DNA of 64,000 bases from Kitasatospora kifunensis (GTDB taxonomy: Bacteria > Actinomycetota > Actinomycetes > Streptomycetales > Streptomycetaceae): the NCBI RefSeq assembly GCF_014203855.1, contig NZ_JACHJV010000001.1, forward strand, positions 2,232,001 through 2,296,000, given 5' to 3'. Each line of letters starts with the position of its first letter. Position 1 is the first letter of the stretch. The notes under the pieces were generated by a model. The model was given only the letters and a program-made list of their open reading frames with translations, did no database searches and was not told the origin of the DNA. A program made the position numbers and the translations under genes. Positions 14,878-26,166 of this stretch are shown one piece after another.

Positions 14878-15183
14878 GAACCCACAGTAGCCGGGCTTAC
14901 CGGGCTCCCCTGCGCCGACTCCCCCTGCGAGTGAATCCGCGTGGCGCGCTCATTTCAGGTGGTCCAGACCACTTACGGGGAACGGTCCTGCCCGGGGCAC
15001 GTTTTGCCCCCACCCGAGTGACTTTGCCGCCCATTCGGGCCCGCTGGTTAACATGGGTGAAACGATTGGGTCACCAACAGGAAACGGCCTGTTCCTATCG
15101 TGAGCCGCTACCACGGCCGGTTGGGACGACTGGTCCGTGCAGGTCTGGTCCCGGCCCCGGCGGCCGGGCAGAGGAGGACGGTC
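14878..15183. other. Intergenic region upstream of glnA
   Basis: About 306 bases between the divergent RDD and glnA starts. No gene is visible. It contains the GlnR box listed separately and a Gly/Arg-coding-like stretch nearer glnA without a supported start. Confidence 0.6.
15047..15085 (+). promoter_or_regulatory. GlnR binding box of glnA
   Basis: Two a/b site pairs follow the actinobacterial GlnR pattern gTnAc-n6-GaAAc: GTTAACATGGGTGAAAC (15047-15063) and GTCACCAACAGGAAAC (15070-15085, spacing one base shorter). The position, about 100-140 bases before the glnA start, is where GlnR activates glnA under nitrogen limitation in streptomycetes. Confidence 0.75.
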
Positions 15184-16599
15184 ATGTTCCAGAATGCGGA
15201 TGAAGTCAAGGCGTACATCGCCGAGAACGACATCAAGTTCGTCGATGTGCGGTTCTGCGACCTGCCAGGCGTCATGCAGCACTTCGCGGTCCCCGCGGCC
15301 ACCTTCGACCCCGCCGAGACCCTGATGTTCGACGGCTCCTCGATCCGCGGCTTCCAGGCGATCCACGAGTCGGACATGGCGCTGGTGCCCGACCTGGCCA
15401 CGGCACGGCTCGACCCGTTCCGCAAGGACAAGCACCTCAACATCAACTTCTTCATCCAGGACCCGATCACCGGCGAGGCGTACAGCCGCGACCCGCGCAA
15501 CGTGGCCAAGAAGGCCGAGGCCTACCTCGCCTCCTCCGGCGTCGCCGACACCGCCTTCTTCGGGCCCGAGGCCGAGTTCTACGTCTTCGACGAGGCCCGC
15601 TTCGAGACCAGCGCGAACGCCTCGTACTACCACATCGACTCCGAGGCCGGCGCCTGGAACAGCGGCCGGATCGAGGAGGGCGGCAACCGCGGCTACAAGG
15701 TCAAGTACAAGGGCGGTTACTTCCCGACCCCGCCGGTCGACCACTTCGCCGACCTGCGCGCCGAGATGTCCCTGGAGCTCGCCAACTCCGGCCTGCAGGT
15801 GGAGCGTCAGCACCACGAGGTCGGCACCGCCGGCCAGGCCGAGATCAACTACAAGTTCAACACCCTGCTGCACGCGGCCGACGACCTGATGCTGTTCAAG
15901 TACATCATCAAGAACGTGGCCTGGCGCAACGGCAAGACGGCCACCTTCATGCCCAAGCCGATCTTCGGCGACAACGGTTCCGGCATGCACGTGCACCAGT
16001 CGCTCTGGGCCGACGGCTCGCCGCTCTTCTACGACGAGCAGGGCTACGCGGGCCTGTCCGACACCGCCCGCTACTACATCGGCGGCCTGCTCAAGCACGC
16101 CCCCTCGCTGCTGGCCTTCACCAACCCCTCGGTGAACTCCTACCACCGCCTGGTCCCCGGCTTCGAGGCCCCGGTCAACCTGGTCTACTCGCAGCGCAAC
16201 CGCTCGGCCGCGATCCGGATCCCGATCACCGGCTCCAACGCCAAGGCCAAGCGCATCGAGTTCCGCGCGCCCGACCCGTCCTCCAACCCCTACCTCGCCT
16301 TCTCGGCGATGCTGATGGCGGGCCTGGACGGCATCAAGAACAAGATCGAGCCGCTCCAGCCGGTCGACAAGGACCTCTACGAGCTCGCCCCCGACGAGCA
16401 CGCGGGCGTCCCGCAGGTCCCCGCCTCGCTCCCCGCGGTACTGGAGGCCCTGGAGGAGGACCACGAGTACCTGCTCGCGGGCGGCGTCTTCACGCCCGAC
16501 CTGATCGAGACCTGGATCGACTACAAGCGCACCAACGAGATCGCCCCGATCGCGCTGCGGCCGCACCCGCACGAGTTCGAGCTGTACTTCGACCTGTAG
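15184..16599 (+). CDS. glnA: Glutamine synthetase type I
   Basis: 471-residue GSI-beta enzyme making glutamine from glutamate, ammonia and ATP; it forms a cytoplasmic dodecamer. Visible motifs are [20 protein letters not shown] (metal-binding Glu), GQAEINYKF, the ATP-binding [25 protein letters not shown] and [15 protein letters not shown]. Tyr399 in [11 protein letters not shown] is the adenylylation site recognised by GlnE, encoded at 37,035. ATG 15184 has GGAGG upstream and a GlnR box further up. The last codons (TTC GAC CTG TAG) form part of a 13-bp sequence repeated at 26,121. The gene is intact, but everything after its stop codon is an inserted island. Confidence 0.98.
16586..16598. 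repeat. Left 13-bp direct repeat (putative attL core) in glnA
   Basis: ACTTCGACCTGTA covers the end of glnA up to the first two bases of its stop codon. An identical copy lies at 26121-26133. Upstream the two sites also agree outside the core (TTCGA-n-C-n-G-n before it), giving 20 of 23 matching bases. Confidence 0.8.
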
Positions 16600-16602
16600 G
16601 GG

Positions 16603-16680
16603 TGCCTCTGACCTGCGGAAACGCAGGTTGATCTCTCATCGTTTCCGCAGGTCAGGGTCCCTCCTGACCTGCGGAAACGC
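16603..16680. repeat. Left-end repeat cluster of the island (inverted and direct copies)
   Basis: The terminal repeat core CTGACCTGCGGAAACGC occurs at 16608-16624 and again in direct orientation at 16664-16680. An inverted copy CGTTTCCGCAGGTCAG lies at 16640-16655. The first two form a 16-bp perfect hairpin with a 16-base loop immediately after glnA. This resembles arm-type recombinase binding sites and could also act as a substitute terminator for glnA. Confidence 0.75.
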
Positions 16681-17093
16681 CTGCAGAGGGGTCGGCTGCA
16701 GCGCCTCTGGGGCTCGCGATGTGAAATGAGTGTGAGATGGACACGGGCAGATCGAACTCGCAATGATCCCCCATTGCCCTTGCCAGCACTGGGCAGTACG
16801 CCATCTCGCTACTTTCAGTAGTCGTCGCTCGTGGGCTGCCGACTCAACGGATTCGATCTTTTGCCGACACTGCAGCTCCCGCCAGGCGAAGCGTCACCCA
16901 CCTCAGCCGCCGCCGAACCACAGACCCCAGCCCTGAACCTCCCGCAGACGAGCAGCCATGGTGCAACGCCACCAGTTGCGGCCGGGCGCGACGACCCGCA
17001 CCCCCCTCGTCGGCAGATTGGCTGGCGTACACGGGGACAGGCTGGCGCAGCACCAGCGCCGAGAAGCGGTGCACCGTGTTCGTGCGGCAAGCG
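16681..17093. other. Non-coding stretch at the left end of the island
   Basis: About 410 bases between the repeat cluster and the end of the Mrr-like gene. Short open frames exist on both strands, but none has a convincing ribosome-binding site, codon pattern or recognisable domain. No terminator-like hairpin with a T run was noted. Confidence 0.5.
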
Positions 17094-18587
17094 CTATCGC
17101 AGATGAAGCAGTTGGGGTGCTGGGACACCCCATTGGGCCCATCGCTGAACTTCCCAGCCACCCATCAGTTTGATGCTGTGCGCACGCGCGAAGCGCAGAG
17201 CCGGCTTCGTGAACCCGGCGTTCGTTACCAGGATCGCTACATCGGCACCGTGTTGGGGTTTGGCGGTCCCGTTGAAGCGTTGGAGCGCTCCGGTGTCGAC
17301 CTTGTGCAGCTTGGAACTCAACTTGCACTGCACTACGCAACGCTGTCCGGACGGGCTCACGGCTATGACGTCGGCGCCAAGGTCTCCCGGCCCACCCCGC
17401 CGCTGGATGATCGTAAAGCCGTCCCGCTCGAAGAGTGTGGCTACGAGATCCTCAAAGTCGCGGTGGTACATCCTCGTCAGGTCCCACCACTTGGTGCCAG
17501 CACCTGACCTGACGTAGCTGATGCGCCGGTCTTCAGTCAGCGTGATGCTCTGGCAGGCGATTGCGTGGTTCGTCAGGAGCTCCGCGAGGCGGGCTTGGGC
17601 TGCGTATAGCCGGTACGAGAGGCCAGCCACTGCTTCCATTGTTGCCGGCCCGTCGGACGGGGCGGATGAGTCGTTTCCAGGAACCAGACCAAACGCGCTC
17701 GCAGCGCCGCTCCAGAGCTCGGAGCACTCCCGGACCGCTAGATCGGCTTGTTCGCGTTCCTCGAGGAGGCTGGCGCGCATGGCCTTGATTGCCGTGTCAT
17801 AGGCCTCCACGGTTTCCGATGGCACCTGGTCGCCTGCTGGGCACTGGAATCTCGCTGCTGCACGGCGGCTCGCGTCATCAACCTCACTCACTACCGTGGA
17901 ACAGTAAAGCCGCAGGGCGTCATAGATGCTGCGCAGATACCGTCCTTCAGTGCTGATGCCCATGGCGGAGTCCAGGTGGGCCTGGCGGGCGGCCTCCGCG
18001 AGAGCTACGGCGTGAACGGCGTCGCAGTGTTCTCTGAGGATCCGCCTGAGTTGCTCCCGCGCTCTCGGCAGCCCGAAGTAGAGGTCTGCTACTCCCTCAA
18101 GACGACGTGTCCATTGTGAGGAGCGGCTGTCGCGCTGATATTGATCACGGACGTCGTAGCCGAAGAGGTCGCCTCGTTCATTCCACAGCCTCTCGGCGAG
18201 ATCGGCAGCCTGCCTGGCCAAGGTCTTGGCTTCCCTCAGCGACAGCATCAGCTTGAGCTCTGCGGCCTGGATGCCCTCTGCGACGGCCGCCGGTACTGGG
18301 CCGTAGTGCGGGCCGAGACCGTAGCCCTCTGCTTGCTTCCTGCGCAGCACGTCCTGCAGCACGGCCTCCACAGCGCGGTGATGCTCGTTCAGCGCGCCAT
18401 TCGCATCGAGAAGGAAGTATCCCTCTTCGTTCCACAGCCACGTTGCGAGGAGGGCGGCATGATCCGCAACGGCGATCTGGGCGCCCATCCACCGCCGTAG
18501 GTTGCGATTGGCATAGCGGGTGGGAAGTACGGAGAGGGATCGATCAATGTGCACTGGAAGAGGGTACAGATGACCACTCACATACAC
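17094..18587 (-). CDS. Mrr-like restriction endonuclease (type IV-like)
   Basis: 497-residue protein. The C-terminal 125 residues are an Mrr_cat nuclease: MYHRDFEDLVATLFERDGF, then GGPGDLGADVIAVSPSG with Asp406, and CVVQCK with Gln420-x-Lys422, i.e. the PD-(D/E)xK core in its QxK form. VAILVTNAGFTKPALRFA and a final MGGWEVQRWA complete the fold. The N-terminal 370 residues are mainly helical and contain no domain I recognise; they may sense the trigger. Mrr-like enzymes cut modified or foreign DNA. No methyltransferase or specificity gene is nearby, so this is not a classical type II or III system. The ATG at 18587 is the first in frame and is uncertain. Third codon positions are less G/C-biased than in the core genes. 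Confidence 0.82.
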   Translation of the reverse strand: MYVSGHLYPLPVHIDRSLSVLPTRYANRNLRRWMGAQIAVADHAALLATWLWNEEGYFLLDANGALNEHHRAVEAVLQDVLRRKQAEGYGLGPHYGPVPAAVAEGIQAAELKLMLSLREAKTLARQAADLAERLWNERGDLFGYDVRDQYQRDSRSSQWTRRLEGVADLYFGLPRAREQLRRILREHCDAVHAVALAEAARQAHLDSAMGISTEGRYLRSIYDALRLYCSTVVSEVDDASRRAAARFQCPAGDQVPSETVEAYDTAIKAMRASLLEEREQADLAVRECSELWSGAASAFGLVPGNDSSAPSDGPATMEAVAGLSYRLYAAQARLAELLTNHAIACQSITLTEDRRISYVRSGAGTKWWDLTRMYHRDFEDLVATLFERDGFTIIQRRGGPGDLGADVIAVSPSGQRCVVQCKLSSKLHKVDTGALQRFNGTAKPQHGADVAILVTNAGFTKPALRFARAHSIKLMGGWEVQRWAQWGVPAPQLLHLR

Positions 18588-19162
18588 TCGTTCGGGTCCG
18601 CCATGCCTTGCCGGCGATCACGTAATCCCCCATCTTCGATCAGTTCCGCGTCACGGAGCTCCCCCCGCTCGGTCAGGATTCCCCGGGGGGATCGCTATCG
18701 TGGACGTAATAAACACACCTTCAATTACGATCGATCTTGCATCGCTGGGCGGGGGTGGAGGCTTCCGATAGACCGTGGTGCGGGTCGCTTACGCGCTACC
18801 GGTGGCGACCTTCTACCACAGAGCGTGAAGGAGGCCGCATACCCCGCGATCTCGACGGGCAGGCGAGGGTGGCACGGTCGTTCAGACCATTCGTGCCCGC
18901 AAGGTTCAGGAGGACGCGCCAAGGCCCGGGGTACGCACTGCCAGTGGCCAGTTGGATTTTCCCAGGGAGTGGCCATCTGATGGAAAGTCACCTGGCCACA
19001 CTCATCAGTACGGTCAGCGACGAAGGTCAGCAGCTCTACACGTGCAACCTCGGCTCCGCTTGGCCGCGCGCAGCAGGCCACCTCGACACCGCGACCACCC
19101 AAAAGACACTGGTCATCGAACTACAGACCGGCTCATTACCATGCTCTCAGCGCGCCTGGTGG
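18588..19162. other. Gap within the island, no supported gene
   Basis: 575 bases between two genes on the minus strand, presumably containing the promoter of the Mrr-like gene and the 3' region of the ABC-3C operon. Open frames exist on both strands (for example 18737-19171 plus and 18725-19102 minus), but their products show no domain, no membrane segment and irregular codon use. It may be a decayed gene. Confidence 0.45.
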
Positions 19163-21112
19163 TCAGCGTGATCGGTCTTCGTATTCATCCTCTGTTCGAC
19201 TGATGTGTCCGGGGCCAGGGTGGACCACTCCAGGGACCATCGGATGGTCGTAGTCAAGTTCGATCTTCCCGAAGGCAGCGCTGGGAATGGGTGCGGAGTC
19301 GTTGTCGGCAATGATCAGCTGGATCCGGCTGCCGTAAGCATCGGCGAGCGCTTGGAAGCGGTGGTAAATACGGCGACCGCGTTCTTGGTCGTCGGCGTTG
19401 GTACCTGATGCCTTACGTGGGGAGTCGATGATCAGCAAGGAGGGCACAAGAACATCGGGGTGAGTGATGCCGAACTCCAGCAGAGTGAGGCTGTAGGCAA
19501 CGTTGATGCAGGTCACGATGCCCCCTCCGTCAGCCTGGAGGGTTTCGAACGAGCCGTCGTTGATCAGCGGCAGATAGTTCGAGGGGTCGATGGTGGCCGA
19601 CTCGATCCACGGGGCAGGACGGAGGTCGGCGACCATGCCGTTGAAGTTCCGACTAAGGTCGGTAACCAGACCCTTTCGTGCAGCAAGTTCGGCGGTTCGG
19701 GCCTTCTGGTCCGCGGTGGCGCGGGCTCGGCGCTCCTTAATGTCGCGAACGGCCTGGTCAATCCCGCGGGCGCGAGCCCAGTACGCGCGCAGCTGGGTCA
19801 CCGCGTCGATACTCGCCCTGAGTGTGGCCGCGCGAGCGCTGGCGTCGGCGATGGCCTCGAAGCGCGGGGACACCATGTCCCGGGTCTGTGCGTCGAGTTG
19901 CCTGCGCACAGTGTGGGCAAGGAAGTCGGCCTGCTGGACGTGCTCTTGCGCGGCCTGCAGGACTTCAGCGTCGGCGGCCAGGACAGCTCGGGCATCTTGG
20001 AGCTGTTGCTCCAGGGCGTTGCGGGTCTGCTGGATGGCGGCCGGGTCCACATCGTCGTCCGCAGGATCGGGCTGCAGGCAGACTAGGCAGTGATCTTCGG
20101 GGACCGGGCGTGCGTTAAGCCGCTGCATACAGCGGGGGCAGACGACGAAGTCGAACGGGGACAGCTTCTCGATCGCGGTGGCGGAGCGCTCAAGGCGGGA
20201 AATGTCGACCTCGATCTGGGCAACGACCGCTTCCCGGGCTTCGAGGAGTTCCTGAGCTGCCAAGAGCTCCTGAGCCGCCTCCCTGGCGGCGTCGATTGCT
20301 TCACGCAGATCCTGGCGAAGGACCGCGTCAGCTGCACTGTTCTCTTCCAGTTCGTGACGCAGCGCTGCGAGGGCCGCGTCGGCGCGCCGCAGCATGTCGC
20401 GCAGGTTTGCGAGCTCTGCGCGAAGTTCTTCGTCGGTGCGGGGGTCGGCTGCGGCGAGGAAGCGCTGGACGTTGTCGTACTCGGCCGTCTTGGCCTTGAG
20501 CTGCTCCTTCAGCAAGCCCAGCAGCCGTGCGAGTTCCAAGACGGTGCTGTCGGTGAGCCCGAACATGAGCTTGAACAGGTGAGCACGCGCGGGCTTGAAC
20601 CATGTGTCGAGGTGTCCCACGACCTCGCGGTCGATGCCGCGGGCTTCCCGGTAGACGTAGGTAAACAGGTCGACGAATGTGAGGTCACGCGTGGTCGCTT
20701 TCCCCTCTCGGCTGGTGGGGATGCTCTCGCGGGGAAAGTTCAGCGCTTCCAGAAGCAGATCGGACAGCGATTCCCCGGCGGCACCGGCACGCAGCGTGAG
20801 GGTGCGGCGCAGCGCCAGGGTTTCGGGGTCGAGGACGTCGACGTGGTCGGTCTGGTTGTCGTTGATGGTCCGTTTGAGGAGCATGTGCTGGTCGCCGACA
20901 ACTACCTCGGCGCGAACCGAGTGGACGTGGTTGCGGACAGCGGGGGTCAGCATGGCTCTACCGCCGACGGCGTGTTTGAGCAGCATGAGGAGGCTGGACT
21001 TGCCGGTGCCACTAGCGCCGCTGACGACGGTGGCCGGCCCGTCAAAGCGGTAGGTCTTCTCGGTGTCGGCCGTTGTGACAGTGAGGGCAATGAAGCGGAG
21101 GTGGACTGCCAT
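19163..21112 (-). CDS. ABC-3C system ATPase (DUF3732, SMC/Rad50-like)
   Basis: 649-residue ATPase. Walker A is at residues 32-40 (SGASGTGKSSLL, Lys38). A long central coiled-coil region is rich in Ala, Glu, Arg and Leu. In its middle (about 322-345) sits a CPRC ... CLVC pair like a Rad50 zinc hook. Walker B is near 557 (LLIIDSPRKASG). This is the DUF3732 ABC ATPase of ABC-three-component conflict systems, which couples sensing of a DNA or protein threat to activation of the effector. ATG 21112 is chosen because it overlaps the stop of the preceding gene (TGATG), which implies translational coupling; a longer frame upstream merely runs through that gene. It is the third gene of a three-gene operon. 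Confidence 0.85.
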   Translation of the reverse strand: MAVHLRFIALTVTTADTEKTYRFDGPATVVSGASGTGKSSLLMLLKHAVGGRAMLTPAVRNHVHSVRAEVVVGDQHMLLKRTINDNQTDHVDVLDPETLALRRTLTLRAGAAGESLSDLLLEALNFPRESIPTSREGKATTRDLTFVDLFTYVYREARGIDREVVGHLDTWFKPARAHLFKLMFGLTDSTVLELARLLGLLKEQLKAKTAEYDNVQRFLAAADPRTDEELRAELANLRDMLRRADAALAALRHELEENSAADAVLRQDLREAIDAAREAAQELLAAQELLEAREAVVAQIEVDISRLERSATAIEKLSPFDFVVCPRCMQRLNARPVPEDHCLVCLQPDPADDDVDPAAIQQTRNALEQQLQDARAVLAADAEVLQAAQEHVQQADFLAHTVRRQLDAQTRDMVSPRFEAIADASARAATLRASIDAVTQLRAYWARARGIDQAVRDIKERRARATADQKARTAELAARKGLVTDLSRNFNGMVADLRPAPWIESATIDPSNYLPLINDGSFETLQADGGGIVTCINVAYSLTLLEFGITHPDVLVPSLLIIDSPRKASGTNADDQERGRRIYHRFQALADAYGSRIQLIIADNDSAPIPSAAFGKIELDYDHPMVPGVVHPGPGHISRTEDEYEDRSR

Positions 21113-21684
21113 CAGATCTCCGTGCGCCAGGGCCTGTCGACCGCGTCCGGAAGTCGGTCGTAGATGAGGGTTTTCAACGCTGTTCCCGACTTGTTGAAGT
21201 GCCTTTTCAGGAGGTCGATCCGCTGGGCCACCACCGCCCACTCGTCCGTTGCAGCCAGCGCGGTAGCGGCGATTGTTCCTTGGGCAGTGACGCGGAACTC
21301 GGCGCGATCCGCACCGGTGTAGGTGATCAGACCGCGGGCGGCCAGCGATCCGAGAATGCTGTAGTAACGCTGGTCCCAGGGGCCGTACTTGTACCGGGTC
21401 ATGCGGCTCTCGACAGCGAGGCGCTCGGAGGATGTGGGCTGTGTCCCCTGCGGCCAGTTGATGCTGTCGTCGACCAGGAGACGGTCAAGCATGGCGGGGT
21501 AGCGCAGCAGGAAGTCGAGCTTGGCAAGCTTCGTGAGGCCGTTCAGGCCTTTCTTGGCCGCAGTGAACCTGTCGATCAGCAGGAGGATGCGGGCCTCGTG
21601 ATAGTGGGCTTCGCGCATTTCCTGGCGCCGAGCCCGATCTCTGATCCGAGCGACGGCAGCGGTGCGGTCGCTGTGGCTCGTCAC
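21112..21684 (-). CDS. ABC-3C system middle component
   Basis: 190-residue protein with a winged-helix-like look. Motifs are LTKLAKLDFLLRYPAMLDRLL near residue 50, SRMTRYKYGPWDQRYYSILGSLAARGLITY near 95-125 and a variable helical tail. These fit the small middle component (MC) of ABC-three-component systems, thought to bridge the ATPase and the effector nuclease. It overlaps the upstream effector gene by 4 bases (ATGA) and the downstream ATPase gene by 1 base (TGATG), so all three are translationally coupled. Confidence 0.8.
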   Translation of the reverse strand: MTSHSDRTAAVARIRDRARRQEMREAHYHEARILLLIDRFTAAKKGLNGLTKLAKLDFLLRYPAMLDRLLVDDSINWPQGTQPTSSERLAVESRMTRYKYGPWDQRYYSILGSLAARGLITYTGADRAEFRVTAQGTIAATALAATDEWAVVAQRIDLLKRHFNKSGTALKTLIYDRLPDAVDRPWRTEI

Positions 21685-23054
21685 GACGCTTCCTCCTCGG
21701 CGGTGTCGAACGGCTCGGAGAAGTAGAAGTCACAGCGATCACAGAGGTCATAGGCCAAGCCGCGCAGGTGCTGCCCGTTAACCCTGAACGGCAAGGCCGT
21801 CGAGAAGTTCTCGGGCACCAGGTGCTGGGTGAGCAGCTGATTCATTCGCCGGCCGTACGGGACACCGTCAACAGCCTCGTTTTCCGCCTGGTCGCGGCTG
21901 GCGAAGGCGGCGTCCACCACTTCCAGGCTCGCGTTGGCCAGCTCGGTGGTGTCGCCAGCAAGACCCGATCGGTGCTGTTCCCAGAGCACGTACCAGGCGG
22001 AACGGAGCCGCTCGGCGTGGGCGGCCTGGTCGGAGGGGACGCCTCCGCGGGCCAGCTTCTTGCGCAGGTTCCCCCCGCCCGGGGCAACAACGGGGAGTTG
22101 TCCCCGGGCGAAGGTCGGCACCGCAGCGAGGCTGGAGACGAACTGCTCCAGGACCGTGCTGCGGTACAAGGTGCGACGGGCAATGCGCTGCTGGACCTGG
22201 ACGTTGTAGCGAACCCTGCTCGGGTCGGCGATGTAGACGGCGAGCTGTCCGCGGTCGCCCTCGTCGCGGTTGGCTTTGTCGATGCGCTCGACCACAGACC
22301 GGTAGGTGGCCTCGGTGTCAATGTGCTCGCGCTGCAGCATCGCGATCGCTGGCCGGAGAAGGCTCTGCAGGTTCACGTCCGTGATGTGCCGGTTGGACGG
22401 CAGTTCGTCGTCGATATGCAGCACAGCGAAGAAGTCCTTGACCGTGTCGATCAAGCCAGCCGGAACGGCAATATCGGCGAGCTTGGAGACCTCGGGGACC
22501 AAGGGGATGGTGGCGTACGGCTGCTTCCAGCGGATCTTGAGGAAGTACCGGGCGACGGTCGCGGCCATGGCGTCCACGCCAGCAGTGACTTCCGGGTCGG
22601 GTCCGCACATGGCGGAGAGCGTGGCGGCTCCGGGCTTCCCCGTGGTTAGGCCAGCATTCGTGGCGAGACGCAGCCGGACGTTGCTGGCACCGTCACAAGC
22701 TCGCCAGCGGTCGAAGAGGTGGGCCAGGCCGCCGTCCTTGCAGATGTCCGCTACGTTCCACGGGTTCCTGCGCTTGGTGCGGTGCTTGACCGAGACGAGC
22801 TCGACCGAGCCGTCCGCATACGCGATGACGAAGTCCTCGTGCCACTCGCAGACGATGTAGTCGATGCTGTCTTCGGTGAGCATGGCGAGGCACGTCCGGG
22901 CGGCTACCTCCGCCTGGTAGCGGTAGTTGCGCAGGGTGTCAGACCCGCTGTCCTCCTTCGGGGCCATTCGGAAGATCGGGTGAACGAACCCATCATCGTC
23001 GTCCTCGTCAGGCTCCTCGGCAGCCCCGGCCACGGCAAGATCAACCACTTCCAC
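21681..23054 (-). CDS. ABC-3C effector with Cap4-like dsDNA endonuclease domain (DUF4297-type)
   Basis: 457-residue protein. After an acidic N-terminus comes a PD-(D/E)xK nuclease of the Cap4/DUF4297 type: NYRYQAEVAARTCLAML, then Glu70 and Asp74 in CEWHEDFVIAYADG, and Lys90 in LVSVKHR. The remaining 350 residues are a helical region shared by effectors of ABC-three-component systems, including HITDVNLQSLLRPAIAML. It presumably degrades DNA when switched on by the ATPase and middle component, giving anti-phage or anti-plasmid protection, possibly at the cost of the cell. The first GTG (23054) is used; a GTG six bases downstream and ATG at residue 30 are alternatives. First gene of the operon. 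Confidence 0.8.
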   Translation of the reverse strand: MEVVDLAVAGAAEEPDEDDDDGFVHPIFRMAPKEDSGSDTLRNYRYQAEVAARTCLAMLTEDSIDYIVCEWHEDFVIAYADGSVELVSVKHRTKRRNPWNVADICKDGGLAHLFDRWRACDGASNVRLRLATNAGLTTGKPGAATLSAMCGPDPEVTAGVDAMAATVARYFLKIRWKQPYATIPLVPEVSKLADIAVPAGLIDTVKDFFAVLHIDDELPSNRHITDVNLQSLLRPAIAMLQREHIDTEATYRSVVERIDKANRDEGDRGQLAVYIADPSRVRYNVQVQQRIARRTLYRSTVLEQFVSSLAAVPTFARGQLPVVAPGGGNLRKKLARGGVPSDQAAHAERLRSAWYVLWEQHRSGLAGDTTELANASLEVVDAAFASRDQAENEAVDGVPYGRRMNQLLTQHLVPENFSTALPFRVNGQHLRGLAYDLCDRCDFYFSEPFDTAEEEAS

Positions 23055-23313
23055 CCACCCCCTGTCCTACCTGCCGCACGCTCCCAGCATCAGAGGGCCG
23101 GGGGACGGAAGATCCCCAGAAGTACCACACGGCCCACGCAGTCCGTAACCCGGTTGAACACATGCGTTACTCGAACGATTCGCAGATAAGGGAATGGTGA
23201 GGGGGCAGCAGTCGGCATTGCAGGCCTGTGCTTGTGCAGGCACGCCATGACTGATTTCAGTCGTGGCATCGCGGGCAGTCAGGGCGCGCCGGCGGCCTGG
23301 TAAGCGCGCAGGA

Positions 23314-23587
23314 TCACTGCGGACAGGACGACTCCCAGACCACCTCAGCCTGGTCCTCGGCGTCCACTTCGGCAACCGCGATGCCCCCTGCCGGAAGGCC
23401 GGTAGAACGAGATCCGGGCGGAGTCCGTCTCGCACACACCGTGGCCCGCGTTCCCGTACAGGCACGCCACCGCGCCCACTACAGCCGCGCGCGACGCGCT
23501 GCACTACCGACGCCACCATGGGCGTGACGACGACCTGTGCCCCGGGCACCAGGACCGGTGCTGCGGCCCGGTGGTGCGTTTGCTCAC
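23314..23587 (-). pseudogene. Possible frameshifted small gene
   Basis: A GTG at 23587 has AGGAG upstream on the minus strand, but its frame closes after 24 codons. Protein-like segments continue in other frames: VLVPGAQVVVTPMVASVVQRV, then AVACLYGNAGHGVCETDSAR, and finally AVAEVDAEDQAEVVWESSCPQ ending at TGA 23316-23314. At least two frame changes are needed, one at a run of five C (plus strand). This could be a decayed gene or chance; no family is recognised. Confidence 0.25.
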
Positions 23588-23642
23588 GTAAAAACTCCTG
23601 CAAGCCGACCGAAGGTAGTGACGGTCGTCCGGCAGCGTCAAG

Positions 23643-23680
23643 GGCCGGGCTCTACCTGGACAACCAGGTAGAGCCCGGCC
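23643..23680. terminator. 17-bp perfect hairpin upstream of the Shedu gene
   Basis: GGCCGGGCTCTACCTGG (23643-23659), loop ACAA, and its exact complement 23664-23680. There is no T run on either side. It may be a terminator, an insulating hairpin or a regulatory dyad for the Shedu gene 95 bases downstream. Confidence 0.5.
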
Positions 23681-23774
23681 TGGTCTCGTCACCGCCATCG
23701 CGCAAGGTTCAGCGGCATGCTGAACGAGTCGCTGACATCCATGGCAGGATCCGCTGCCTCAGCTACGGCACCGA

Positions 23775-25910
23775 ATGATGGAGACCTCGAAGGTTCCCAT
23801 TCTCCAGACGAGTTGGCCTCCGGAAGTCCATCCTGAACTCATGACCCTGCCCAGTGTCTCTCCGGCTACGCCCACCACGGCAAAGATCACCGCAGTGACA
23901 CGGCGCGACATCTTTGACTACCTGCGCGGTACCGGCACCCCGTGGTGGGGGCGACTCGACGACGAGATTGCATTCCTGGAGCGGCTTTACAAGCTCGACG
24001 AGCTGCCGTCGACCGATAGCCGATTCGCCACAGCACGCGGCGACATCCTCCAGCACCGGTTCAACAACTACGACTGGGACGATGACTGGATCTTCACGGA
24101 TCCCCGTCTAGCGCTCCGCTCCGGGCCAGACGAGGTACTGCTCGCCTTCCTCGTGCAGACTTTGCACCCGGATGTGCTCTTCGACGTTGACCAAGCCTCA
24201 CGGCGCGTCGGTCAACTGAACCGCCTCTTGGAGCCTGACGGCTGGGCACTTCGCGCCCACCGGTTCCTGTCGGGGCGGCCGATCTACACGCCGGTCCGGG
24301 TGCAAGCCGCCGGCCCGCTGGTGTCGTTACCCCTGAGCGACGATGACGCGGGCAAGCTCGATCTCGTTCTCGGCCAGGTCTACAGCCTCCTCGACTGCGA
24401 CGGGCAGGAGGCTACGCGGGACCTCCTACGCAAGGCCACGCTCACGTTGCGCCGCGACGGCGGCATCTACCACCCCATGCCGGACGACAACTGGACCTCC
24501 AGCACATACGAGGCCGTCCTCACAGTCGACCGCCCGCTCCTCCCAAGGTTCACGCCAGCCGTGGTCGATGCCATCTGGCAGCCGCTGGGAGCAGTGCTCG
24601 CACGGCTCGGACGCGAAGACGTGCAGTCGCTCATGGTCGAAGGCGACATGGGGCCGATGCCCTACATCCCGCACGACTGGAGAGGCCGCGCGGTCACACC
24701 GGCCTCCCCCGTGATCCGCGGTGCCCGCATCAACTTTGCTTCCACCGACTTCGACGTTGTGCGCCAGGACTTCTCCGACCTTGAGATCCATTCCGCTGCG
24801 GACGGCGGTTTCCACTACCTCTACGACACTCGGGCGAACAGGCGGGTCACCGACTTCATTCTCGACGACCGACCCCAAGTAGCGACGCTGTGCAACGTCA
24901 CCATCATCAGGAAGGACGATACCTACTCTCCCCGAATCAAGCTGTGGAAGAAGGACAAGACCAAAGCCGAGAAGGCAGTGGCCATGGAGGTCATTCCTGG
25001 AACCGAGACCACGCAGATCATCAAGGCCGTCGTCGACACCAGTGATGCCCACGAGAACTTCTGGAAGGTCATCAACTTCCTCCAAGGGTGCACCGGGCTC
25101 CACACCCCGGGCAGTCGCGCCGGTCTCGCTGTCGGCGATGCCGCTCAGCTCGCCGAAATTCTGACCGGCCAGGACCGGACCATGCTCCTGCACGCGCTCA
25201 AAACCGTAATCGGCGGTTCCCTCACCGAAGAGGACATCCGGCTCATCAGCAATCGCAAGGCCCAGCTCCGGCGCTTCGACCGGCTGCTGAACGACCCTGA
25301 ATATTTTCAGAAGGAGAAGGAGCGAACCGCCAAGTCGAGCGAAGCGCTCTGGCAGGACTATTTCGAAGGAAACCCCTGGATCTTCGGTTACGGCCTCAAC
25401 CTCATCGCCTGCGAGGCCCTCGATGACGGCAAGCTCGAACGCATCACCACCGGGGCCAACATCTTCACCGGAGCCGGCAAGCGGATCGACGCGATCATGC
25501 GCTCCAAAGGCTTCATCAGCAGCATGCTGTTCTGCGAGATCAAGACCCACGAGACGCCGCTGCTCGCCAAGACCCTCTACCGCGCCCCGGACGTCTACCA
25601 AGCCTCGACGGAACTCGGAGGCGGAGTTGCCCAGGTACAAAAGACCGTCCACAAGGCCCAACGGCTGATCTCCGACGAACTGACCCGCCTGTACCAGGAC
25701 GACGGCACCCCGACCGGCACCGAACTCTCGACCACCAAACCCCGCCAAGTCCTCGTGATCGGCAGCCTGAACGAATTCAAGCAGGACGGCGCCGTCAACC
25801 CGGAGAGGCTCAGCTCCTTCGAGCTCTACCGATCCTCTGTCCAAGGCATCGAGGTCATCACGTTCGATGAACTCTACGACCGCGCCTGCTTCATCGTGGA
25901 GGACCGATAG
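23775..25910 (+). CDS. sduA: Shedu-family anti-phage nuclease with AbiJ-type N-terminal domain
   Basis: 711-residue single-gene defence protein. Residues about 38-165 (VTRRDIFDYLRG ... QHRFNNYDWDDDWIFTDPRLAL ... LHPDV) match the AbiJ N-terminal domains of abortive-infection proteins. A middle region of about 330 residues follows. The C-terminus is a DUF4263/Shedu nuclease: Glu523 in SSEALWQDYFEGNPWIFGYG, Asp572 in KRIDAIMRS and Glu588-x-Lys590 in CEIKTHETP, the PD-(D/E)xK core, then QVLVIGSLNEF. Shedu proteins cut DNA in response to phage. Start uncertain: ATG 23775 or, with a shorter linker, ATG 23841; neither has a good ribosome-binding site. One in-frame TTA codon (24327-24329, residue 185) suggests bldA dependence. 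Confidence 0.85.
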   Translation: MMETSKVPILQTSWPPEVHPELMTLPSVSPATPTTAKITAVTRRDIFDYLRGTGTPWWGRLDDEIAFLERLYKLDELPSTDSRFATARGDILQHRFNNYDWDDDWIFTDPRLALRSGPDEVLLAFLVQTLHPDVLFDVDQASRRVGQLNRLLEPDGWALRAHRFLSGRPIYTPVRVQAAGPLVSLPLSDDDAGKLDLVLGQVYSLLDCDGQEATRDLLRKATLTLRRDGGIYHPMPDDNWTSSTYEAVLTVDRPLLPRFTPAVVDAIWQPLGAVLARLGREDVQSLMVEGDMGPMPYIPHDWRGRAVTPASPVIRGARINFASTDFDVVRQDFSDLEIHSAADGGFHYLYDTRANRRVTDFILDDRPQVATLCNVTIIRKDDTYSPRIKLWKKDKTKAEKAVAMEVIPGTETTQIIKAVVDTSDAHENFWKVINFLQGCTGLHTPGSRAGLAVGDAAQLAEILTGQDRTMLLHALKTVIGGSLTEEDIRLISNRKAQLRRFDRLLNDPEYFQKEKERTAKSSEALWQDYFEGNPWIFGYGLNLIACEALDDGKLERITTGANIFTGAGKRIDAIMRSKGFISSMLFCEIKTHETPLLAKTLYRAPDVYQASTELGGGVAQVQKTVHKAQRLISDELTRLYQDDGTPTGTELSTTKPRQVLVIGSLNEFKQDGAVNPERLSSFELYRSSVQGIEVITFDELYDRACFIVEDR

Positions 25911-26089
25911 AACTCCGCCACCCCTCCACCACCACGAGAAGCCTGTTCGAGCCTCGTAGCACTCTGTAGTGCCGAGCAACGGGCTACCAGCACGACCTGC
26001 CAGCATCGCCCCGCACCTCTCGACGCCTCTCATCCGTTGAGGCCGCCGCGTGTGCACTGGTTGTGAAATGATCTTCCATGGAGCTTCTA
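25911..26089. other. Right end of the island, non-coding
   Basis: About 180 bases after the Shedu stop with more A and T than the core genome. No open frame or strong hairpin is visible before the right terminal repeat. Confidence 0.5.
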
Positions 26090-26108
26090 TTTCCGCAGGT
26101 CAGAGGCA
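26090..26108. repeat. Right 19-bp terminal inverted repeat
   Basis: TTTCCGCAGGTCAGAGGCA is the exact reverse complement of 16603-16621 at the left end. It lies 12 bases inside the right copy of the 13-bp direct repeat. Confidence 0.9.
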
Positions 26109-26120
26109 TGTTCGATCAGA

Positions 26121-26133
26121 ACTTCGACCTGTA
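26121..26133. repeat. Right 13-bp direct repeat (putative attR core)
   Basis: ACTTCGACCTGTA, identical to the end of glnA at 16586-16598. In context it reads TTC GAT CAG AAC TTC GAC CTG TAA, a glnA-like tail that would restore a stop codon. This is what an attachment site carried on the element would be expected to show. Confidence 0.8.
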
Positions 26134-26166
26134 AGGCGCCTGATTGACCGCCAGACTCCTTGACCG

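Follow-up and report, generated by a model that had tools for sequence, protein, structure and literature searches.

Shedu proteins that carry varied N-terminal domains are a known class. For most Shedu N-terminal domains we know of no trigger. In 2025, Gu reportedly distinguished 79 Shedu N-terminal types in eight classes. The minimal SduA proteins of Bacillus cereus (8ti8/8ti9) and Escherichia coli (8ps4/8ps5) have a nuclease fold and catalytic residues in common with the protein described here, which adds about 300 N-terminal residues to them. Passages of PMC12137116 describe VcSduA of Vibrio cholerae, a type I-D Shedu protein in which a GHKL ATPase precedes the Shedu nuclease; it defends its host, and changes in either part abolish defence. 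Our protein is likewise a single chain with a large module added in front of a Shedu nuclease, but that module is of another kind, its first part being an AbiJ-type domain. According to parts of PMC3710099, where AbiJ-NTD3 was named, such domains are fused to AbiJ/HEPN proteins, DUF2726 REases, TIR domains, kinases and ABC ATPases, and AbiJ-NTDs were proposed to contact viral components and restrain the attached enzyme. The words DUF4263, SduA and Shedu are absent from the text of that paper. In the portions available of PMC11811056 and PMC12447246, AbiJ and Shedu are both named, as separate systems only.

The gene lies in a stretch of 64,000 nucleotides from Kitasatospora kifunensis, a soil-dwelling relative of Streptomyces, hereafter the window, as an ORF at 23775-25910 on the forward strand that begins with ATG and stays open across 711 codons. 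Two Pfam domains were found in it by hmmscan, and no others at E up to 1. AbiJ_NTD3 (PF18860) covers residues 37-179 (23883-24311), scoring 156.1 bits against a cut-off of 32.5 (E 7.4e-46), and SduA_C (PF14082) covers residues 521-701, with 91.7 bits against a cut-off of 27 (E 7.1e-26). Nine orthologues align across nearly the full ORF length at 64-91% identity. The preliminary description gave the protein 711 residues, which is correct for the open frame. The protein itself probably starts at Met23 (23841) and has 689 residues, because Met23 is invariant in the ten aligned family members (window included), because the public annotation of one orthologue begins exactly at the equivalent Met, and because another copy (L010) has an in-frame stop two codons ahead of it. 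Upstream of Met23, His19 is also invariant in the ten and the other residues vary. Further upstream, at 23643-23680, is an inverted repeat with perfect 17-bp arms and a 4-base loop, the core of which occurs once in the genome.

The nuclease half of the fusion is an ordinary Shedu. The PADLOC SduA model PDLC00391, 402 positions long, aligns over residues 321-710 (E 6.3e-151); the whole of a minimal Shedu is therefore present, beyond the nuclease domain alone. This alignment also divides what had been described as a 330-residue middle region. That region does lie between the AbiJ part and the nuclease, but it consists of two parts, a small alpha/beta module at residues about 189-312 (24339-24710), which we name Mid, and the Shedu protein's own N-terminal region at residues 321-478 (24735-25208), the latter present in short Shedu relatives too. 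The PD-(D/E)xK nuclease region follows at residues 479-711 (25209-25907). Its proposed catalytic residues were placed correctly: Glu523 (codon 25341-25343), Asp572 (25488-25490) and Glu588-Ile-Lys590 (25536-25544) align with their counterparts in 8ti8, and the Glu of the last motif is Ala in chain 8ti9_E. Glu523, Asp572, Glu588 and Lys590 are invariant in the ten aligned members of the fusion family, window included, and in a wider set of 18 sequences that extends to four short, distantly related Shedu proteins (27-35% identity).

Comparison with solved structures gave the same assignment. B. cereus Shedu 8ti8 was matched by sequence (E 1.5e-12) and by profile (E 9.6e-26), and E. coli SduA 8ps4 by profile (E 3.1e-8). 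With the predicted structure as query, Foldseek matched 8ti8 at E 1.4e-8, and VIA-align of the predicted C-terminal part returned Z 16.8 for 8ti9, 16.7 for 8ti8, 12.9 for 8ps5 and 12.8 for 8ps4, the next row being Z 7.9. The best of these superpositions, on 8ti9_A, covers 181 aligned residues at rmsd 3.5, with low model confidence at model residues 517-560, which include part of the active site. By its domain, catalytic residues, fold and stand-alone gene, the protein belongs to Shedu (SduA/DUF4263). The N-terminal part does match an AbiJ profile and the predicted nuclease fold keeps its acidic/Lys cluster, the two points on which the preliminary description had let its proposal stand or fall.

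According to sections of the AbiJ literature, AbiJ abortive infection proteins have an N-terminal domain of the same type 3 as the fusion but end in a HEPN RNase, where the fusion has a predicted Shedu-family DNase. An assignment of the fusion to AbiJ itself was ruled out, as hmmscan found no HEPN or Abi_C domain at E up to 1. In VcSduA, as far as its published description was available, the place of AbiJ_NTD3-Mid is taken by the GHKL ATPase. We found no paper on an AbiJ_NTD3-Mid-Shedu fusion in the open-licence literature. Within that literature, as far as it was searched, the stack of AbiJ_NTD3 and Mid on Shedu is new, and the earlier view that the combination had not been characterised holds there.

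We consider it probable that the fusion is a single-protein anti-phage DNase of the Shedu type, held off by stacked sensor modules and freed by an infection cue. Residues 321-711, the Shedu N-terminal region and PD-(D/E)xK domain, would form a complete minimal Shedu nuclease, and AbiJ_NTD3 and Mid would keep it inactive or set when and where cutting happens. An infection cue would make AbiJ_NTD3 and Mid release the nuclease, which could then cut phage DNA, probably near DNA ends by analogy with characterised Shedu proteins. The predicted structure of the 689-residue form is poor overall (mean pLDDT 56.9, pTM 0.35), so domain contacts that could show such autoinhibition are not visible in it. 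When AbiJ_NTD3 and Mid were predicted together alone, the NTD3 model was confident, with AlphaFold2 block means of 81-93 pLDDT over ORF residues 43-172. Neither module matched a PDB entry by fold at E 0.001 or better, and the viral fold library gave no match at E 0.001. For NTD3, the best solved relative by sequence profile was at E 0.85; the VIA-align table covers Mid only, so by that method NTD3 was hardly probed.

Both modules are reused outside Shedu. In a protein search, 33 of 394 genomes of the family had a match at E 1e-5, near full length in 11 of these, including the window's own. Ten proteins with an NTD3 match, picked from the loci of this search, were scanned with Pfam and all passed the AbiJ_NTD3 cut-off. 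Four carry a kinase domain (L018, L020, L021, L022) and three Abi_C (L023-L025); one (L030) is a fragment next to an IS110 transposase, and the last two, L026 and L027, have no further domain at E 0.01, with sub-threshold DUF559 matches at E 0.039 and 0.094, respectively. Additional NTD3 proteins include another kinase (L019), a protein with AAA_15/AAA_21 on a viral contig (L083) and one with no other domain, also on a viral contig (L082); viral contigs yielded two NTD3 loci with A6 and none with A2. The one N-terminal domain on various effectors is as given in the parts of PMC3710099 consulted, and the kinase and AAA cases were found here as well. Among 296 genomes of the phylum, NTD3 was above cut-off in 3 and SduA_C in 13, with both only in the window's genome. 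Since this sensor-like domain is shared by Shedu, kinase, Abi_C and ATPase proteins, the most easily assayed of these effectors could be used to look for its cue.

In three of the AbiJ_NTD3-kinase proteins (L018, L019, L020) about 150 residues precede NTD3. This stretch matches the PADLOC PDC-M01A and PtuA models in L018; on inspection by eye, L019 and L020 look similar at this place. A similar stretch seems, by eye, to be placed after NTD3 in L083.

Taken alone, residues 181-322 drew no match from the families of Pfam (E up to 5) or PADLOC (E up to 0.01). A Mid profile built from seven family members matched in nine of 293 genomes of the order. Six of these hold the Shedu family or its remnants, and in the other three the match is the first half of a small frame: L095 (G384, 303 codons, E 4.8e-8), L096 (G243, 285 codons, E 3.2e-7) and L097 (G226, 300 codons, E 4.2e-4). 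A Mid profile that already included these frames gave three matches in 296 genomes of the class, namely the window's own, a further Mid-headed frame of 262 codons (L103) and a doubtful fragment (L104). Conversely, a model made from L095-L097 only was compared with 1,559 ORFs, taken from the window and six fetched stretches. Its only matches at E up to 10 were the six Shedu orthologues, always where Mid lies (E 5.9e-14 to 1.8e-7). These reciprocal matches show that Mid is reused outside Shedu; as far as our searches reach, it is a reusable module without earlier description. The end segments of L095-L097 have DUF559/DUF2726 matches at E 0.005-0.008, below the Pfam cut-offs, and L103 matches DUF559 at E 0.079, also below cut-off; L095-L097 had no PADLOC match. 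The partner of Mid in the small frames is thus likely a nuclease, judging by these sequence matches, and L095, L096, L097 and L103 possibly form a new nuclease family.

Reuse of both modules, together with their faster divergence (below), makes it more plausible that NTD3 and the middle hold the trigger sensor, as had been suggested. Thirty NTD3 positions, many of them polar, are retained by 93% or more of the tree rows. Eleven residues (R43, E64, Q93, H94, N98, D100, R111, H131, N149, D155 and S166) are kept in Shedu and also in 87-100% of the 14-15 non-Shedu rows, which are kinase, Abi_C, nuclease-like and other proteins. Because these residues are retained in Shedu and non-Shedu NTD3 alike, NTD3 might respond to one common infection cue, for example a nucleotide-like ligand or the state of a nucleic acid, and not to a variable phage protein. 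Mid might then be a second, independent input, which would make the fusion a two-input switch built from swappable sensors. We regard this extension as speculative and rather unlikely in its entirety.

The predicted fold of Mid, alpha-beta-beta-alpha-beta, bears on a different role for the added modules. Its best VIA-align score was Z 7.9: there were many rows for ribosomal eS7 (up to Z 7.9), and among these stood SirA (Z 7.6), DnaA domain I (Z 7.1) and DciA (Z 6.8). At this level we do not claim a KH-, ferredoxin- or DnaA-domain-I-like fold. The weak resemblance to the alpha/beta adaptor domains SirA, DnaA domain I and DciA could however mean that NTD3, Mid or both are targeting modules and not triggers, binding phage DNA, replication proteins or a DNA structure and bringing an always-competent nuclease there. 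The N-terminal part of E. coli SduA clamps DNA ends according to passages of PMC12904381, which is in keeping with this reading. Z values under 8, on the other hand, may reflect a common arrangement only, and the kinases and Abi_C proteins that carry NTD3 as well have no need of DNA targeting. We think targeting unlikely and retain release by an infection cue as the preferred reading.

Scanning genomes for two peptide patterns of the subfamily gave 23 loci, 17 in Streptomyces, three in Kitasatospora and one each in Nonomuraea, Mangrovactinospora and Actinoplanes; two of them (L034 and L044) are from one species and have similar flanks. Sixteen of the 23 copies have a single open frame to the conserved end, counting one with an internal in-frame deletion (L042). 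The other seven are interrupted or remnant copies, some of which may be draft-assembly errors, and their number indicates that the gene is often lost. Such losses could point to an abortive-infection suicide nuclease, in which the N-terminal modules serve as an antitoxin within the same chain and the nuclease, once released, kills the host cell instead of clearing the phage. In excerpts of the literature, AbiJ-NTDs are proposed as antitoxin-like inhibitors (PMC3710099) and Shedu is toxic on heterologous expression (PMC12904381). Broken copies can equally come from assembly errors or ordinary turnover, however, and in the parts of PMC12137116 consulted VcSduA was protective at all tested multiplicities, which its authors read as direct restriction with host survival. 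Passages of PMC11811056 similarly group Shedu with non-abortive systems. Host suicide is thus improbable in our view, and clearance of the phage by the freed nuclease is the outcome we favour.

For a tree of NTD3, 44 loci were entered, two of which (L014, L050) were lost to the length filter, leaving 42 rows (41 different) with analyst-assigned labels. All 27 Shedu-family rows, which include some interrupted copies and an NTD3-Mid remnant that lacks the nuclease (L098), fall on one side of a branch with support 100/99. A single origin therefore explains the sample. Divergence by domain was compared in 15 sequences (105 pairs). Mean identity rose from 0.694 in NTD3 through 0.711 in Mid and 0.719 in the Shedu N-region to 0.806 in the nuclease region, and mean dN fell in the same order from 0.216 through 0.193 and 0.188 to 0.121. 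Identity was lower than in the nuclease region in 104 of the pairs for NTD3, in all 105 for Mid and in 102 for the Shedu N-region. This faster divergence of the front parts fits a sensor role, and relaxed constraint would look the same. In the close pair of the window and L003, NTD3 was not faster (dN/dS 0.096, against 0.105 for the nuclease), and domain-wise dN/dS was mixed among four close pairs. Identities in L031 hinted at intragenic recombination, but the tree forks were open and we do not claim it.

Divergent from the Shedu gene is a three-gene Lamassu system (19163-23054, reverse strand) made up of LmuA with a Cap4 nuclease domain, LmuC and LmuB. Beyond it, also on the reverse strand, 17094-18587 encodes a 497-residue protein whose C-terminal part is an Mrr_cat nuclease domain (E 5.7e-23), preceded by about 370 residues without a significant match. 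Matches to the window's LmuA, LmuB, LmuC and Mrr proteins were absent from the 27 loci searched, of which 23 are orthologue loci, and from the stretches of about 20 kb around the Shedu gene in five other genomes. No neighbour family was found in more than five of 24 loci, as counted from ORFs with GC3 above 0.80 only. The Shedu fusion is thus a stand-alone single-gene system with no conserved partner gene. A functional unit with the divergent Lamassu operon was ruled out, since Lamassu is not found beside the orthologues in the loci searched.

These genes share a 9.5-kb element (16575-26136) in a part of the window, 15-26 kb, where GC is 0.62-0.67 compared with mostly 0.69-0.78 elsewhere. Direct repeats of 27 nt lie outside, the left (16575-16601, forward strand) being the end of the glutamine synthetase gene and the right (26110-26136, forward strand) 85% identical to it. 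Identical 19-nt inverted repeats lie just inside (16603-16621, forward strand; 26090-26108, reverse strand). In the window, the inverted repeat (up to 2 mismatches) and a 24-base form of the direct repeat (up to 3 mismatches) each occur only at their two element sites, with 0.01 and 0.00 occurrences expected by shuffling; the whole genome has two more places like the inverted repeat, with 1 and 2 mismatches. Six ORFs were picked within the element: a 105-codon ORF without Pfam match, those of the Mrr_cat protein, LmuB, LmuC and LmuA, and the Shedu gene. No integrase was recognised among them. A reverse-strand ORF at 14950-16572 was rejected as a gene, as it has no Pfam match and the opposite strand (15103-16596) encodes the glutamine synthetase.

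The flanks were surveyed in 70 genomes of the genus. We used the 53 in which the SpoIIE-type gene on the right was strongly matched and left out the 17 with weaker matches only. In 47 of the 53 both flanking genes lie on one contig with order and orientation kept; the other six have no such pair on a single contig. The gap between the two genes in these 47 ranges from 80 bases to 144 kb, the longer ones possibly containing ordinary genes. The Shedu gene falls, by coordinates, within this interval in five (G000, G084, G114, G171, G193) of the seven same-genus genomes with a near-full-length copy, but not in G061 or G187. In the five genomes with the shortest gaps, checked as candidate empty sites, the glutamine synthetase end was found without the exact shared 11-base core and with no clear second repeat copy, an outcome compatible with site-specific insertion and with its absence alike. 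G193 has three repeat copies, two of them preceded by the inverted repeat; extra downstream copies of the glutamine synthetase end there (L113, L114) and in G084 (L076) suggest stacked elements.

A gene inside a terminally repeated element, at a site whose content differs between genomes of the genus, could also be a passenger of that element which mainly excludes rival elements, such as plasmids and other islands, over phages. Near-full-length matches to the fusion occur on 6 of 72,556 plasmid records, in one of which a transposase gene splits the match; among the 33 plasmid records with an NTD3 match these six, all from Streptomyces, are the ones with the Shedu fusion. Its neighbour Lamassu acts on plasmids too. 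Exclusion of rival elements is nevertheless compatible with phage defence as well, and as the gene's main role it seems to us a doubtful prospect; we keep to an anti-phage role as the likely one. In either case, the element at the glutamine synthetase gene is a place to seek further defence genes in the genus.

The same glutamine synthetase gene as at the window's element recurs in a further genome of the genus (G143:C1:6119163-6120063), where one of the AbiJ_NTD3 proteins with a weak DUF559 match (L026, G143:C1:6113833-6114333) is encoded about 5 kb downstream.
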